From contig CM037784.1 in the NCBI GenBank assembly GCA_021229015.1, forward strand, positions 68,169,013-68,233,012: 64,000 nt of DNA, given 5' to 3'. Below the pieces are notes generated by a model that worked only from the letters and a program-made list of their open reading frames with translations, was not told where the DNA came from and made no database searches. Numbering within the stretch: position 1 is the stretch's first letter; each line of letters begins with the position of its first letter. This document shows, in pieces, positions 17,680 to 26,329 of the stretch. The translations under genes were made by a program, and so were the position numbers. Source of the DNA: Solen grandis. Its lineage: Eukaryota; Mollusca; Bivalvia; Adapedonta; Solenidae.

Positions 17680-17784
17680 AAATGTTATATGTGTTTTTAC
17701 CACAATAGGTGGAGAAAGAGGAGGTTGTTCAGAACTTGGAACATAGGCTATAGTGCATTATGAAAAAACAAAAAACATATTAAT

Positions 17785-17806
17785 TTAAGGTAGAGGCACC
17801 CTAATG
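17785..17806 (+). repeat. Left TTAA target site and terminal inverted repeat of the 8.3-kb transposon
   Basis: TTAA at 17785-17788 is followed by GGTAGAGGCACCCTAATG (17789-17806). The right end in complement reads GGTAGTGGCACCCTAATG, giving 17 of 18 matches. Confidence 0.85.
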
Positions 17807-17947
17807 GGCCCGGCAAATGTTGGCAAAGATCGCCTAAAGTTTGAGATTCTTCGTCACATAACGCCACTATTCGGAATACGATTTTTATTTGACAAAGATA
17901 TTTTATTTTTAGTACATTTCATAATCTTCAGCCAAATTTGACCATTT

Positions 17948-19232
17948 TTAGCTCGACTATTCGAAGAATATGAGAGCTATTGTAGTCGCCCTGGCGTCGG
18001 CGTTGCAGCTTTTGGTTAAAGTTTTGCGTGCAAGTTTCTATCAACCTTATATCTCAATAACCATTTATGGCATTGACTTGAAAGTTTATAAATATGTTTA
18101 GGGGCATCAGACAACCAAGGTAGATAACTCTTGACTGAATTTAATATGAAATTAACTTAGAAATTTTGGTTAAAGTTTTGCATGCTATAGAAAATTTGGT
18201 TAAAGTTTTGCATGCAAGCTACTATCTAGTTTGTATCTTAATAACCATTCATGGCATTGACTTGAAAGTTTATGAATATGTTTAGGGGCATCAGACAACC
18301 AAGATAGATAACTCTAGATGGAATATATTACAAATTATGGCCCCTTTTGGTTAAAGTTTTGCATGCAAGATACTCTCATGCTTACATCTCAGTATCCAGG
18401 CATGGGATTGATTTGAAACATCTTTAATATGTTTAGGGGTATCATACTTTCATGGTAGATAACTCTTTATGGAATGTATTTCATATTGCCTTTTTTAACT
18501 TAGAAATTTTGGTTAAAGTTATGCATGCAAGTTGCTTTCATGCTAATATCTCAGTATCCAGGCATGGGATTGATTTGAAACATCTTTAATATGTTTAGGA
18601 GTATCATACTATCAAGGTAGATAACTTTTGATGGAATGTATTTCATATTGCCTTTTTTAACTTAGAAATTTTGGATAGTTTTGCATGCAAGGTACTTTCA
18701 TGCTTATATCTCAGAGTCCAGGCATGGGATTGATTTGAAACATCTTTAATATGTTTAGGGGTATCATACTATAAAGGAATATAACACTTGATGGAATATA
18801 TTAAAAATCATGACCACCTTTTAACTTAGAATTTTGGTTAAATTTTTGCATTCAAGCTACTATCCAGCTTATATCTTAGAAATTGCTCGTGGAATTGACT
18901 AGAAAGTTAAGGAGTGTCTTCAGGGGCATCAGAAAACTAAGGAGGATAACTTTTGGACTGAATTTTATGCAAATTTTGGCCTTTTTCTAACTTGGATTTT
19001 TGCTTAAAGTTTTGCATGCTCAGTGTTATTTTGCATATGTCTCAGTAACTAGGCATAGGATTGATTTTAGACATCATAAAAATAGTAAGGGGTATCAGAC
19101 TATCAAGGTATATCATTTTTTACTATAATTATGTACAGGGTATGTGAAGGGCAAGAATTTAAATAGATTTCATTTGATTTACCAACAAGCATTTTGAATA
19201 GTCGAGCGTGCTGTCCTCTGACAGCTCTTGTT
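17948..19232 (+). mobile_element. Helentron-like repeat of a second family, with internal tandem units
   Basis: The 5' end is AGCTCGACTATTCGAAG followed by AATATGAGAGCTATTG. The 3' end is GAATAGTCGAGCGTGCTG followed by CCTCTGACAGCTCTTGTT. CGACTATTC and GAATAGTCG form a subterminal inverted repeat. Between them lie six or seven units of roughly 165 bp, each containing TTGGTTAAAGTTTTGCATGC, CATGGGATTGATTTGAAAC and TAGATAACTCTTGATGG. It sits in the left arm of the TTAA transposon, upstream of the start codon. Another copy starts at 33652. Confidence 0.7.
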
Positions 19233-22200
19233 ATTGTTATTTGTCATTTAAATGCAAAAACATTGTTACTTTTCTAAATAAATAACAGAGAAAAATCTCC
19301 AAATCTACTTCCGGTTTCGTTACTTTGGAAATCATAATGAGATATCGTGACAATTTCGGTGTTTTCCGAAAAGCTCGCATTAAAAAAGCAACTTTAAAAC
19401 ATGCAAAGAATGTGTTGATTGAACATAATTACAGTTTCACGAGTTTGTGTTTTGGTAATTCGTGCAAAACGGATAATTGTCACAGTGATCAACATCTGAA
19501 GCTTGTGAATGGCATTAGTCGAAGTGGGTGGAGAGAGGGTAGGAGAATTATTGAACTAGGTGTTCTTATGGACAATTTAAGATACTGTCAGTCCTGTAAG
19601 CTAGGACCCGTTCCCCTTATGTTCTACAATATAGTTGGTGAACTCCAAAAAGGGCTTGGAGGATACTTATATGTCATGTGCCAGAACCCAGACTGTCAGT
19701 TTATAAACAGGGTGTCATATGGAAAGACACATCACAACAAAGCCAAAGGGATGCCCTGTTTTGATGTTAATACCAAGCTTGGTACAGGTAAGTATTATAA
19801 TGACATATTATAATTCATTGTAAATTAATTCTCATCAGGCTGTTAAAATGAAATATGTATACACATGACATGCTGTAACTGATTGTAACTCTTCTGGTGG
19901 GTGTATCAAAATGCTTTCCTTTTTCAATTTAATTTGTAATTTTGTTTTACACAATTCTGAGTCTACTATTCTTATATGGCAAGCAACTCACTCCAGATAT
20001 TAAAATAATGTTAAATATATTTATAAATGTATATATCTAAATAATCACAATGTTTGTACTTTTCTGACTGAACAAATAAAGATGAAAGAAATCACTGCTT
20101 TACTATGATGTTTCTGTCTATTTCCAGCAATGATTGACAATTTAGGTGGTTCGTGTTAAAAATTTCCTGTCAACGCTTAACCTGAAGCCTATCTGCAGAA
20201 AGAATTTGAAAAATATGGAGGATCGTGCTGGTGAGACGATTGTGAGTGTTGCTGTTGATTCTGCAAGACAGGCAGCCCATAATGTTTTCCAGAAAGAAAT
20301 GGAGTATGTTTCCTTATCACCTCTGTTTGTTGTTTCTTAATTATTCATCATTTCTCATGTACCATCATGTTTATACCCTATTGTTGTGTCAACTGACCAG
20401 TCAATGTGTTTTACTCTACATAAAACTTTCAAAAGTGCCTGCATTACTGAACTTGGTAGTGTCATGCTCAGTAACAAGATGATATTATTTGATCATGGCC
20501 ATTTGTACCTTTTATTTATGCAAGTATGCAGATTCTTCTTTTCTTTTTTTTTTACAAACGTTTTGATATGTTTTCCTCACAGACACGCTATTCTGTTTCA
20601 GAGATGTTGCACAACTAGAATCCTCAATGGTCAAGGAAAAAATGGAAGGACAATTTGTGGATGATCTTGGAGTGTGTCCCTTTCCTGATGAATCACCATC
20701 TCTAAAGTAATTGATTAAGTAGTTAAAGATGGTCTTTATTTAAAACATTTATTGCTCAATACATTACAAGAAGACTGAAAGCATTGAGACATAGTGAACT
20801 CAAATATGAAATTATCCTACTGAAGCCCTTAGTATTTAGGCAAAGCGTTGCCTCTATTGCAAATATTGAAGTCTTATTGTTCACTTTGTGTTCTTCTTTC
20901 ATGGATTTTTTTTTCTTTTGTGTTCAGTTTTGCTGCACCTAGTATCTGGTCAATATTGTATTTTTATTTAGTTAGAAAGTAATGAGTGCTTGGTATTTTA
21001 TTTTTCAGACAAAGATTACAGGCTGGCCCTGTTGTTGAAGGTGACTCAGACAGTGATTGGACAGATGTTGAGTCGGGTGATGAGGATAATGGTGGAGATG
21101 ACTGTAACATTCAGGCTCTGGCTTCCCCCTCTGCTGCCTCCCCACAGTAAAAAAGATTTTATCAAGTTGGTTTAAAGTGTTTAATCTTTGTTTAATATAT
21201 CAACTTAATTTTAACATTTTAGGAAACAATATTTTACAACCTATTTTTATTGATACCACAGTCACATATACAAGAATAACATAATTAAAACCAGTGTAAT
21301 GCTTATATACTGTACAGTATATATTCAGAGGTCATATATTTTGCACTGAAAATTCAAGACTGATAGCACACTGGAAGGCATTAGTACAATTACTATTCAT
21401 GTATTTTTGCAATGGTTTTGGTAGTTTTTGTTACAGAAGTATAGCTGGTTACATTTTATTTTATCTTTTTTTAATTACTACTAGAACCCCTGCAAATACT
21501 GTAAATGCAAGACATTTTGGACATAGGAAGATACTCCAAAAAATGTCTGGTACTCCTGCAAGCTCCACGAGACGTACACGCCTTGACAAGATGTTCCCTT
21601 GTAAAACACGCTTTGGAATGTCATGTGCCATTGATACTGCTTGGCAAAAGAAGGGGTTTGATAGTTTAACATGTAAGTATTGCATTATGAAGATTATAGT
21701 ATTGTTTCTACATTTTTTTTTTCTATTTGTTTAGATGTATTTTTGATCACTTCCCATGATTTCATGGCATAAACAGGTTGCCTGAATAATTGGCCTAAAA
21801 TGCAGTTCAGGGAGCGTCAATCACTTCTACCGTCAATTGTAATAGTATGTGCTTGCTTTTTTCCATCTTATTTGAAGATAATAGTTATTAGCTTGGTAAA
21901 CCAAATAATAAGCAAACTGTCACATGTTTCACAGTTGTTGTTTTTTTAAATATTTTTTTGACAGCACATACATTCCTTATGAGTAAGGCAGTGTATGGTA
22001 AGAAGGTTGTCAAGTCAGTCATCAGCCACAGAACCTGTGGAACATGCAATTGGTGGCGGTGGAATAAACCAGGTTGTAATGTCAGGCCTCACAATTGTGT
22101 CAGGAACTATAGAGGAAGTGCTAGACTCATGGAAAGTGTTAGTGGGGAGACCGGTGTTATTCAGCTGGGTGATGAGGGGACTCCAGTGGAGTACCTTGAA

Positions 22201-22814
22201 GGAGATGGTGATAATACACTAATTGCAAGGCTAAGAAACAACAGAAAAATCGAAATGAAAAAGCGATATGACAGAAATCATATTGTTAAAAACGTAGGAA
22301 AAAACTTGTATGCCCTACACCATAAGAAAGATGTTAAACTGAGCAAAATGGTTATTTTGTATCTAGAAAAGTGCTTGAAATACGCTTTCGCCAGAAATCA
22401 AGGGGAAACGGAGGCCCTTCGGCAAAACATAAAGGCGCTTGTGCCTCACCAGTTTGGAGACCATTCTTTCTGTAATGAAAGATTTTGTTTTTAAACAGAC
22501 ACCAGGTGAACTTTATGTGCATAAAAGTCTTCCTTACAAGACATCACTGAAAGACCCAAACCTGCGTGTTGAACTTCAGGAAATATTTGATCCTCTAATT
22601 GCAAATGCTGGTCAGTATGCAGACTTGGGATCAAGTCAGCAGTGTGAGCATGCTAACAAGGAGGTCAGTCTCCGTGCTCCCAAGTCTCATCACTACGGGA
22701 ATTCCAAGTCCCTGGATTACAGGGTGTGTGCTAGTGCAGTCTTCATCAATGAAGGAAGAGGCTACATAGCAAAGGTATTTTATTGTTACAGAAAGTTTTC
22801 TGTTTGAAATTGTT

Positions 22815-23042
22815 TTTAGCTCACATGAGCACAATGTGCTCCGTCGTGCGTCATCAACAATTTGGCTTGTTAACACTCTAGAGGCCAAATTTTTAAGGCC
22901 AATCTTTATGAAACTTGGTCAGAATGGTTGTGTCTATAAAATCTTGGACAAGTTCAAAATTGGGTCATGTGGGGTCAAAAACTAGGTCACCAGGTCAAAT
23001 CTTAGTAAAACCTTGTTAACACTCTAGAGGCCACATTTTGAT
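22815..23042 (-). mobile_element. Helentron-like repeat fragment in intron 6 of the transposon gene
   Basis: The plus strand reads TTTTAGCTCACATGAGCAC AATGTGCTCCGTCGTGCG, then CTTGTTAACACTCTAGAGGCC twice (about 22868 and 23013). This is the complement of the interior and 3' end of copy H (55985-56417), where CTCTAGAGTGTTAACAAG also recurs. The 5' end is missing. Confidence 0.65.
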
Positions 23043-23199
23043 TGTGTATATAAAAAAATATCTTAAATGGCCCATAATGGACTTGCAATTATTTTTCAAT
23101 GAAGAGCATAGAGTTAATTCCACAAGTGGAATTTGAACCCAGAACCTATTGTGTTTGTATTGTATTCTTCAGTTGCTACATAATAGTAATGACTTTTTT

Positions 23200-23236
23200 T
23201 TTTTTTGATAATGCAAAAAAAAAAAAAAAAAAAAAA
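23200..23236. repeat. Poly(T) and poly(A) tracts
   Basis: A run of T (about 23193-23205) and a run of about 22 A (23215-23236) face each other just upstream of exon 7. They may mark the tail of an inserted retroelement. Confidence 0.6.
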
Positions 23237-23615
23237 TGTTTTAGATAGATGTAAGTTGGTTATTTTTAGACTAATGAGGCACTAGGACTGTCACCTGGAA
23301 ATAATACTGTAAAGTATGCTGATAAGTGCCAGAAGCAAAGTTTGCAGAAGCAGAAATCTCAGGTCCTTCCGTCTGGGAAACGCCGTAGACTCGAACTCAA
23401 GAAGGAACGCATTACTAGGCAAGGAGCAATGGAAGCCTTGGAGGGTGTTTCATATCACTCAGGTAGGGGAACCTTCTAAAGTGTTTAGCCCCCACTTAGC
23501 TTAATCAGTAAAGCCCTGGTTTTATGTCTTTATATTTTTTGAGTCATTAGTTTGATTCTAGGACTGGTAACAAATTAATGTTTAACTCTGGATTCATAAT
23601 AAGCAGTAAGTCATC

Positions 23616-23780
23616 ACTAACGCCGGTTTCCAGCTGGCTTGCGGTAGGTCGGTGGTTCTACCCGGGTACCTCTGTGTACTCGGGGTCTTCCTCCACTTGT
23701 AATTAGCTGGACGTCGCTATATGATTGAAATACTATCGCAGCGACGGTAAACCCCAATACAACAACAACTAACGCCAGTT
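23616..23780 (+). mobile_element. tRNA-derived SINE (family 2), 5'-truncated, with target duplication
   Basis: The body (23629-23767) reads CCAGCTGGCTTGCGGTAGG, GGTGGTTCTACCCGGGTACC, TCTTCCTCCACTTGTAATTAG, GACGTCGCTATATGATTGAAA and ends in CCCCAATACAACAACAAC. It is flanked by ACTAACGCCGGTT (23616-23628) and ACTAACGCCAGTT (23768-23780), a 13-bp duplication with one mismatch. The tRNA head is missing. It lies in intron 7 of the transposon gene. Confidence 0.8.
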
Positions 23781-23944
23781 ATGTACATTGAATCCCCCCC
23801 ACCCCCCAAAAAAGTGAAAATGTTTATCAGAAAAATGTTTGATTCATAGCTTGATAAAATTTAAATAAAATATGTACTTTGAAGTTTATTTAAGTATTTT
23901 GAAGACTATTATATAACAGATTCATTGATGTGTATCAATTGCAG

Positions 23945-25190
23945 AAGTAGGACACTCCAATGTTGTTGACATTGATCAACTACCAGATGCTGTTCCTCGA
24001 GGGAATTTTCAACCTGTTGAAGTGGATACTGGAAAGCCAACATTTGTCACACTTGACCTTGAAACTACTGACCTAAGTAAGAATAATTATTTATCCACTT
24101 AGATTAGATAAATAAATAAAGTGATTAGGTAGCATATTCATAAACATTAAAAAAAGCACAACATGAGAATGTAAACAAGTTAGATATGGCACAAATGTAA
24201 AATTAAAATAATTTTTAATCTACACCAGTTTCTTTGATGAAAAGCTATCATTTATTTCATAAACACAGATGTGAGAGTGTTGTCATTTGTTGTTTTTTTG
24301 TGCAATGGAATAAGTGATATTCACCTATTTATGTTTTCACTTTTTTTTCAGTTCGTGGTTCTGTCATTCCTCACATCACACAGCTGATTGCGGCAAAAGA
24401 AATAAAAAGTGGGGCCCAGTTTGGGGTATACTCCTAGCCTCTTGTCCCAATTGCACCAGATGCACAAAGAATTACAGGAATATGTGTGATAGTGGTAACA
24501 TAGTTGTCAATGGAAAGGCTGTTGAGACTTTGACTATCAAATGTGCCCTTGAAAAATTGTGCAGCTGGCTAGAAAAATTCCCCAATGTTTACATTGTTGC
24601 GCATAATGGCTGCAGATTTGATTTTCCAGTACTCATGACTGCCATGGAGAAAACAGGAAGTACAGGTAGTTTAATGCAGTGTGTTACTGGCTGTGTTGAC
24701 AGTCTTGCTGTTTTAAGAAGTTCCCAGACCAGTCACACAAACAGGAGGACTTGGTCAACCAAAACCTTGGCATTTCTTACAGTGCACATAATGCTGAAGC
24801 AGATGTTGAAGCTCTTGCACAACTTATTAGACTGTGTGAGGTCCCTGAACTAGTATCATGCAGTTTCTCATTAAATGCAGTAAAGAATTCAATGCTTTTT
24901 AACATAGCAAAATCAAACAACATTAGGTCATTGGATGTCTTGGTATGCAAAGGAGTTATGAAGCGCCCACCGGCTGAGAACATTGCTGGCTCAGGGTTAA
25001 ACTTAGAACATTTGAGAGTAATCCATAGAAGGTCAGGAGCAGATGGACTTCGTGACTGTTTTATAGCCAAAAACAGTATTGGATTACCAAGAGTAACCAG
25101 CTCAAAAAAAGTGATTGAGGAAGTGATTCCCAAGATCAGCCAGTACTTGACTCATAATTATTCTGTCGAAAGATTCCATGTACAGGTTCC
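23945..25190 (+). pseudogene. DEDDh exonuclease domain, exons 8-9 of the same transposon gene
   Basis: Exon 8 (23945-24076) follows exon 7 in phase and contains TFVTLDLETTDL, the DEDD motif I (D-x-E). Exon 9 (24352 to about 25190) begins IRGSVIPHITQLIAAKEIKS. It then holds IVAHNGCRFDFPVL (motif II, with its Asp), a VDSLAVLR segment, and YSAHNAEADVEALAQLI (motif III, H-x4-D). All expected acidic residues and the histidine are visible. This fold removes nucleotides from 3' ends of DNA or RNA. Exon 9 has TAG at 24435-24437 and two frame changes (about 24440-24482 and near 24720), so it is dead. About 110 residues after motif III (GLRDCFIAKNSIGLPRVTSS) have no recognised domain. The reading ends near CCAG/GTAGTT at 25190, which could be one more splice donor; no further exon was found. 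Confidence 0.75.
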
Positions 25191-26103
25191 AGGTAGTTTG
25201 TATAAATCTCTGCAGATATTCTTTTTTTTGAATGTGTTAACTTAAAAAAAACTTTAATCAAGTAACTAGGTAGTTTGAAATGGCAAGCTTTATAAAACAA
25301 ATGATTTTGTAGAACTTTGTACACTTTTTAATGTACAGTGCAAAACAGATTTTTATCTTCAGGAAAATTTCATATATGAAATGAGGATTGTGTTTTCACA
25401 TAAAAAATGTCATTTTCTGTTCATTATTTTACTTAACAATGGTTTCACATTCAGCATGCAACACTTAATATGATAAGTTAATTTATTTCTTTAATATTGT
25501 GGACACATGGTACATGAAAAGAACTTATAAAACTGTCAACACCTAATATTTGGTATTTTTACTATGCTTAAAAAACGGGGGGTCATTTTATACAAACTGT
25601 TATAACTTAATATTTTGATGGTTGACCTATTCAAAATTGTGCATTTTTTTGTTAAATACATTATATGAAAGATTTTTTAATAGCTTATTCCAAGATACTT
25701 GTATAAAAAATACATAATTTTCCAGGATTTGTAGTTGCGCTATTTTGCAAATGTAAGCAAAATATCAAAATATAGTAGGAACATTATTCTAAATATTTTT
25801 TTAAACAAACATATTAACAGGTTTTCTCTGATTTTTTTTAATGTTTGCCATATAATACATGTCTTAGGTATTAAATAAATCAATTTGTGAGACAAAAAAA
25901 GGGAAATTTGATGATTGTATAGCTGTTTTTATATGTATACCCGCACAGAATTTGCGTAAGCTTTTGAATACAGTGATTGATAGACTAAAAATAAAAAAAA
26001 TACAAAGAATTTGTGGTTAGATTTTTTTTATATTACACAAAATGCTTTCTTTGCATGTACAAAATGAAAAAATACCAAAGAAACACAAATTTGAAATTTC
26101 ATG
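25191..26103. other. Right non-coding arm of the TTAA transposon
   Basis: AT-rich sequence with no frame similar to transposase or exonuclease. It runs up to the right inverted repeat. A poly(A) signal-like AATAAA occurs at about 25874, though nothing ties it to the gene. Confidence 0.5.
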
Positions 26104-26125
26104 CATTAGGGTGCCACTACCTTAA
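26104..26125 (-). repeat. Right terminal inverted repeat and TTAA target site
   Basis: CATTAGGGTGCCACTACC (26104-26121) is followed by TTAA (26122-26125), mirroring the left end at 17785-17806. Confidence 0.85.
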
Positions 26126-26329
26126 TAAAGGATGAAACCGGACACTGCTCTCTTAAGCATGGGGAATTAATATCCATGTTGGTCACTGTAATTTGTTTAA
26201 AAAAAAGATTGTTTAGACTGTTGATACTCATGTGATATGTGATGACATGATTAAAAATTATTTTCGTATCCAGCCATGTTGCCTGTTTAAATCCCCTGGT
26301 CCACCCTACTCTGTGCATGAGTATTATTT

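Follow-up and report, generated by a model that had tools for sequence, protein, structure and literature searches.

A stretch of 64,000 nucleotides from the bivalve Solen grandis (GenBank assembly GCA_021229015.1, contig CM037784.1, positions 68,169,013 to 68,233,012; here called the window, with positions counted from its first letter) contains a broken copy of a KolobokD DNA transposon, whose open relatives in the same genome encode a single protein of 1007 amino acids (aa) that joins a Mutator-type transposase through a conserved linker to a DEDDh exonuclease domain and a five-helix tail. An earlier note on this DNA, made from the sequence alone, knew of no described Kolobok with such a fusion; in fact, Kolobok families with a DEDDh exonuclease received the name KolobokD in 2022 (Kojima & Bao, PMC9587614), and this is the only paper in which our literature search met the term. 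New here are the PML_C tail behind the exonuclease and the Plex9 exonucleases as its nearest solved relatives. We also extend KolobokD by open copies complete with their two ends, by its gene structure, by fusions in a single frame and by a second, deep lineage in one genome.

The element is delimited by GGTAGWGGCACCCTAATG, an 18-bp terminal inverted repeat (TIR) found at 17789-17806 on the forward strand, where it starts with GG, and at 26104-26121 on the reverse strand, with a TTAA adjoining each copy (17785-17788 and 26122-26125). The unit between the two TTAAs (17789-26121) measures 8,333 bp, its 18-bp ends differ by one mismatch, and the arms of 22 nt that include TTAA are 95% complementary. 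Searching the window with the 18-bp end at up to 3 mismatches returned these 2 matches and no others (chance mean 0.09; two or more matches in 1 of 100 shuffles). Genome-wide, the combined TTAA and TIR word, also at up to 3 mismatches, occurs 576 times in forward and 602 times in reverse orientation, compared to 1 and 0 occurrences of the backwards control. These ends are thus a genome-wide repeat, and the inverted ends beside TTAA that the earlier note had described are borne out by both searches; since the word lies so far above its reversed control, most copies sharing this TIR are probably non-autonomous derivatives. As in Kolobok transposons, TTAA, the putative target-site duplication, flanks both ends of the window copy and of two open relatives, L023 and L025 (it also stands at single ends of further copies whose outer flanks differ), and the termini of these three elements read GG...CC, i.e. 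5'-RR...YY-3'. Comparing the outer flanks (17761-17784 to the left and 26126-26149 to the right), we found the left flank of the window copy in common with L022 and L035, and nearly so with L029, and the right flank in common with L021 and L026. Because of these recurring flanks, such copies look less like new insertions than like duplicates of one insertion, which could stem from segmental duplication, from haplotigs or from a larger repeat; L023, L024, L025, L027, L028, L030, L031 and L033 have other flanks and were counted as independent.

The gene of the window copy comprises nine exons on the forward strand. Exon 1 (19337-19787), the N-terminal part of the Kolobok transposase, matches PF20700 (Mutator-like transposase; cut-off 26.5 bits) with 33.9 bits and takes its bounds from homology to L023 and L025. 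Three-frame reading combined with the same homology places exon 3 (20602-20706), exon 4 (21009-21146), exon 5 (21485-21672), which carries the first catalytic D of the transposase (CAIDTAW), and exon 7 (23270-23462), the basic tail of the transposase half; combined with copy comparison, it places exon 2 (20128-20303). Exon 6 (21965-22774; PF20700, 103 bits) holds a CCHC zinc finger, GDGD, DxxH, a second zinc finger and QCEHAN, all read by eye. Exon 8 (23945-24076) contributes the conserved linker and the first exonuclease strand (TLDLETTDL, with the first D and the E of DEDDh), and exon 9 (24352-25245, its end set at the stop of the tail's frame) the remaining exonuclease and a helical, SAM-like tail. 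Behind the exonuclease lies a match to PML_C (PF25244) at 24919-25149 (57.9 bits in the genome scan and 57 bits in the exon scan; cut-off 27.1), a feature beyond the earlier description. The Pfam check of the exons proposed in the note was thus successful for PF20700 in two pieces, while a third piece remained under the cut-off with 15.4 bits; 4 of the 9 exon pieces gave no Pfam match at E ≤ 1, and nothing exceeded any cut-off in NCBIfam. Three-frame reading and comparison with 16 related regions show that exons 2, 6 and 9 are shortened relative to L023 and L025 and have interrupted frames, so that the window copy is unable to make the protein. The landmark motifs reported before are present, but the single phase ascribed to them therefore does not hold for this copy. 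The second exonuclease motif reads HNGCRFDFPVL here versus HNGRRFDFPVL in L023 and L025.

The fusion is supported by these relatives. A DNA search with the exonuclease exon found 19 places including the window's own, and 16 of the other 18 were examined. L023 (7,970 bp) and L025 (7,433 bp) are bounded by exact TTAA-TIR ends on both sides, and each has nine exons, eight GT-AG introns and an open fused frame of 1007 aa, with the exonuclease inside the TIRs. The further copies with the same ends, TTAA and both domains in frame that the earlier note had suggested looking for thus exist. L027 has a broken frame, and L021, L024, L028 and L030 comprise 3' parts of the element alone. In the L023 protein, the transposase motifs start at residues 339 (first D), 434 (GDGD) and 582 (CEHAN) and the three exonuclease motifs at 727, 818 and 880, followed by PML_C at residues 925-1003. 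PF20700 matches this protein with 175.8 bits, and the motifs CAIDTxW, GDGD, DRNH and QCEHAN, found by eye, are those of a Mutator-like DDE transposase with C/DxxH; together with the ends, this supports the previous assignment to the Kolobok superfamily with its TTAA target and Mutator-type transposase. The two zinc fingers reported for KolobokD, a CCHC finger after the first catalytic D and another between DxxH and E (PMC9587614), are seen by eye in L023 and L025 as CGTC...HKC and HQFGDHSFC..C, respectively. The exonuclease-tail part of L023 matches RNase_T with 30.9 bits (cut-off 24), as expected for a DEDDh exonuclease; RNase_T was not matched when the complete 1007-aa protein was scanned.

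Further fusions emerged from genome scans. PML_C was found at 84 places, all above the cut-off, and in none of 14 control genomes; a comparison with a PF20700 scan, in which 114 of 504 candidates were scored, showed a same-strand PF20700 match within ~3 kb upstream for at least 6 of the 84. Two of these regions, L039 and L040, contain uninterrupted stop-to-stop frames of 715 and 638 aa, in which part of the transposase domain (PF20700 profile positions 152-357 of 357 with 196 bits, and 214-357 with 114 bits) is joined to the exonuclease and its tail (RNase_T 39.8 and 36.1 bits; Exu_RNase_H_like 41 and 36 bits, cut-off 27; PML_C 57.5 and 57.6 bits). The start of the transposase falls outside both frames, and in L040 so does the region of the first D. 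At ~32% identity to L023, L039 and L040 represent a second, deep lineage in the same genome. The L040 family is repeated: a second copy matches almost the entire frame at 96% identity, and four 3' pieces (~256-314 bp) match at 98%. Looking ~3-4 kb to each side for TTAA-flanked inverted ends of these two elements, we found none with 12 of 18 matches in L045 and four candidates with 12-13 of 18 in L046, where control words reached up to 14 (each of L045 and L046 includes 100 N). Four more PML_C places were sampled: L042 and L044 have a transposase by tblastn, L043 has transposase-like remnants by eye, and in L041 the linker can be seen by eye, but tblastn yielded no transposase in ~3 kb upstream. 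L041 belongs with L037 and L038 to a single repeat family, whose members carry the exonuclease and tail and share 84-95% identity over 1-1.9 kb; for L037 and L038, tblastn yielded no transposase in ~1 kb of upstream sequence. This repeat family has the top PML_C scores of the genome (84-88 bits).

The same architecture is found in other molluscs. When the L023 protein was used as query and matches were scored over residues 700-1007, 11 proteins were obtained, 8 of which have transposase, exonuclease and PML_C according to precomputed Pfam annotation; these three-domain gene models come from Haliotis, Pinctada, Ruditapes, Mactra, Pecten and Mytilus. Together with L023, L025, L039 and L040 they support the view, already put forward in the earlier note, that the transposase-exonuclease fusion lies inside the mobile unit and in one frame (with a partial transposase in the case of L039 and L040). 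A profile search found 550 relatives, of which the best 120 are described here: all rows that name an organism are molluscs or teleost fish, Mercenaria P0035 (66%) stands closest to the exonuclease part among the named relatives, and PML_C is listed (precomputed Pfam) for 109; the 11 rows without it comprise 7 from fish and 4 that are molluscan or unnamed. L044 is 84-91% identical to the Ruditapes protein P0013 over 5 of 6 matched stretches and 72% identical over the sixth; judged by these similarities alone, a venerid-like bivalve would be the likely host. The KolobokD linker precedes the exonuclease as a fixed pattern in 33 of 47 non-fish proteins and by eye in the remaining 14, and is absent from all 3 fish proteins covered; at least 25 aa ahead of the exonuclease were required, which 83 of the 133 proteins did not offer. 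Two side observations concern these models. The teleost models P0021, P0022, P0041, P0121 and P0133 show by eye at least two tandem Plex9-type exonuclease domains, with no PML_C listed. P0012 from Mactra antiquata, named an rRNA-processing endoribonuclease, has the KolobokD linker, exonuclease and tail at its end, and may be either an annotation artefact or a host-transposon fusion.

The nearest solved relatives of the exonuclease are 3'-5' exonucleases, namely fish Plex9 ("PML-like exon 9") chains with 136-144 bits, compared to 27-37 bits for TREX1/2 and Exuperantia; Plex9 is a vertebrate exonuclease family linked to the tumour suppressor PML. The exonuclease thus belongs with the Plex9 family, and TREX was rejected as its best description, as was ERI1, since no row named ERI1 is among the 55 matches listed. 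With TREX1 as query, three Plex9-type chains scored 25-29 bits and the fourth was absent at E ≤ 1e-4. In favour of an active enzyme, three catalytic residues are conserved in nearly all non-fish rows that cover them: the D of the second motif is present in 121 of 121, the H of the third motif in 123 of 124 and its D in 123 of 125, whereas over 291 columns the share of the most frequent residue averages 0.58. The tail is modelled as five helices (predicted local distance difference test score 91.4), was recognised as PML_C by Pfam in all 14 chosen rows and matches that model with 43-69 bits across transposon tails. The tail alone gave 22 matches in PDB at E ≤ 10, none of them at E ≤ 0.001 and Exuperantia not among them; the whole model aligned with Exuperantia (5l80_A) over 327 columns at a root-mean-square deviation of 12.6.

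How might such a protein work? The transposase half would, judging by its family, cut and join at TTAA and thereby excise the element. The tethered exonuclease would then digest 3' ends that become exposed while the element is excised and the DNA repaired, removing intermediates that were misprocessed or left unjoined, and the helical tail may assist the grip on nucleic acid. We hold this account of the 1007-aa KolobokD protein to be reasonably probable, and clearing of 3' ends at the transposition complex, which Kojima & Bao also suggested (PMC9587614), to be the most likely function; that five Kolobok lineages carry differing accessory proteins (PMC9587614) fits a recurring need for end processing. 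Comparison of L023 with L025 shows purifying selection across the whole protein (ratio of non-synonymous to synonymous rates 0.26; the intron control skipped one of eight introns), and the tail differs by 4 synonymous and 0 non-synonymous changes. Three points weigh against an active, DNA-clearing exonuclease. Taken alone, the exonuclease differs between L023 and L025 by 2 synonymous and 8 non-synonymous changes, as without selection, although these counts are tiny. The first D and E are present in only 54 of 75 rows; the missing residues seem to reflect gene models without exon 8, since most rows in the linker comparison show no first motif at all. Finally, RNA could conceivably be the substrate, by analogy with Exuperantia and the PML domain, which are reported to be nucleic-acid-binding pseudo-nucleases.

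Among other explanations, the exonuclease might counter host defence by degrading cytosolic or extrachromosomal DNA that triggers sensing, as TREX1 does for other substrates. It is most closely related to Plex9 and, at a greater distance, to TREX1/2 and others, and Kojima & Bao cite TREX degradation of L1 retrotransposition intermediates (PMC9587614); however, its covalent tether to the transposase speaks for a site of action at the transposition complex, and we regard a role in defence as unlikely. Less probable still is that the exonuclease-tail module mainly binds RNA or single-stranded DNA, with catalysis secondary. The presence of the PML_C tail in all 14 chosen rows would suit such a role, and the PML isoform I domain (PXL) and Exuperantia bind RNA and are described as pseudo-nucleases, but the DEDD residues lost in these two proteins are kept in the transposon relatives. 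That the exonuclease is a host gene or chance neighbour outside the mobile unit, as the broken frame of the window copy, which by itself does not prove a fusion, the lack of a transposase match in the ~1-3 kb upstream of L037, L038 and L041 and the lone 3' parts might suggest, is very improbable and indeed refuted by the spliced frames within exact ends of L023 and L025 and the uninterrupted frames of L039 and L040, while the linker recurs in all covered non-fish proteins and L037, L038 and L041 reduce to copies of one repeat, with the linker visible in L041.

The relationship to Plex9 raises the question of origin. Common ancestry of the Plex9 and KolobokD exonucleases, in either direction, is in our judgement nearly certain. 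As to the direction, we lean slightly towards a joint scenario in which a KolobokD-like transposon gave rise, by domestication in early jawed vertebrates, to both the active Plex9 exonuclease and the C-terminal module encoded by PML exon 9 (a nucleic-acid-binding pseudo-nuclease in PML-I); insect Exuperantia may be a second domestication. This direction is favoured because the module follows the KolobokD linker in all 47 covered non-fish proteins and because KolobokD is reported from three phyla (PMC9587614). The exonuclease of L040 is 43-45% identical to three Plex9 chains and 34% identical to L023; for L039 the values are 39-43% versus 35%, and for L043 36-41% versus 33%. Judged by these identities, Plex9 would look like a group nested among transposon exonucleases. 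Against this, unequal rates give the same pattern, and a rooted tree, whose very long outgroups TREX1 and PolC were flagged by the program as meeting long branches, placed both transposon lineages on one side (support 77/97). Constraining the divergent lineage to group with Plex9 cost 1.25 log units (approximately unbiased test, p = 0.415), so that this alternative is not rejected. An earlier tree without the divergent lineage had Plex9 on one side (83/83); between the two trees the near-duplicate rows Mol_P0012, Kol_P0010 and Plex_P0022a were removed. In our literature search no link between KolobokD and Plex9 or PML was found, and the one paper containing both words, PMC9319628, has PML and Kolobok once each. 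If domestication is true, a domain of a vertebrate exonuclease family and of PML has a transposon source, and the transposon version is the ancestral enzyme, open to study.

Some further features of these elements deserve mention. Downstream of the 5' TIR, the window copy contains a non-coding subterminal array of ~7 direct repeats of ~160 bp (18008-19159, forward strand), which is matched in L021, L022, L029 and L035 among others, with no match in L023 or L025. A piece of intron 6 (22866-23040) contains a repeated 28-nt word; this piece is arranged in tandem in L026 and L027 and is found outside the element in L025 as well, and we read it as a satellite-like repeat that was inserted or expanded in the intron. 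PF20700 matches form clusters on C4 (39359673-39375400, seven at ~2.5 kb spacing), C12 (20150366-20246168, with neighbours ~4.1 kb or 8-10 kb apart) and C11 (4640706-4673001, with irregular spacing), an arrangement that resembles the tandem multimers known from KolobokP.

Of the known systems, KolobokD itself is closest. It has been reported from molluscs, arthropods and cnidarians, and shares with our elements the Kolobok DDE transposase, the DEDDh exonuclease, the TTAA target and the 5'-RR/YY-3' ends (PMC9587614); all features compared (exonuclease, zinc fingers and Kolobok hallmarks) were found. Its exonuclease has been compared with exuperantia, TREX and ERI1, and was proposed to break down DNA intermediates of transposition, starting at the 3' end (PMC9587614). 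The available description neither mentions the PML_C tail nor says whether the two domains share a frame, and the main text contains neither "PML" nor "promyelocytic" (PMC9587614). The five Kolobok lineages have five different accessory proteins, including three nucleases and a helicase; KolobokE, KolobokH and KolobokP likewise add a nuclease or helicase to a Kolobok transposase, but differ in the enzyme, which is lambda-exonuclease-like, RecQ and a His-Me finger, respectively (PMC9587614). The Plex9 exonucleases (PDB 9mrc and 9mrd, titled Plex9.1; 9l85 and 9l8b, assigned by similarity) differ from KolobokD in having no transposase, no linker in the 3 covered fish proteins and no PML_C in the 7 fish listed. 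Exuperantia (PDB 5l7z, 5l80), reported like PXL to bind RNA with its DEDD residues lost, scores no higher than TREX2 in the profile comparison (35.6 versus 37 bits), and its SAM-like domain is unmatched by the transposon tail alone at E ≤ 0.001. No PML chain is among the PDB matches, and the link to PML rests on the Pfam model and on published descriptions, in which the C-terminal PXL domain of PML-I has an exonuclease-like fold followed by a five-helix SAM-like part; this is the same order of exonuclease fold and helical tail as in the transposon protein, whose tail the Pfam PML_C model matches.

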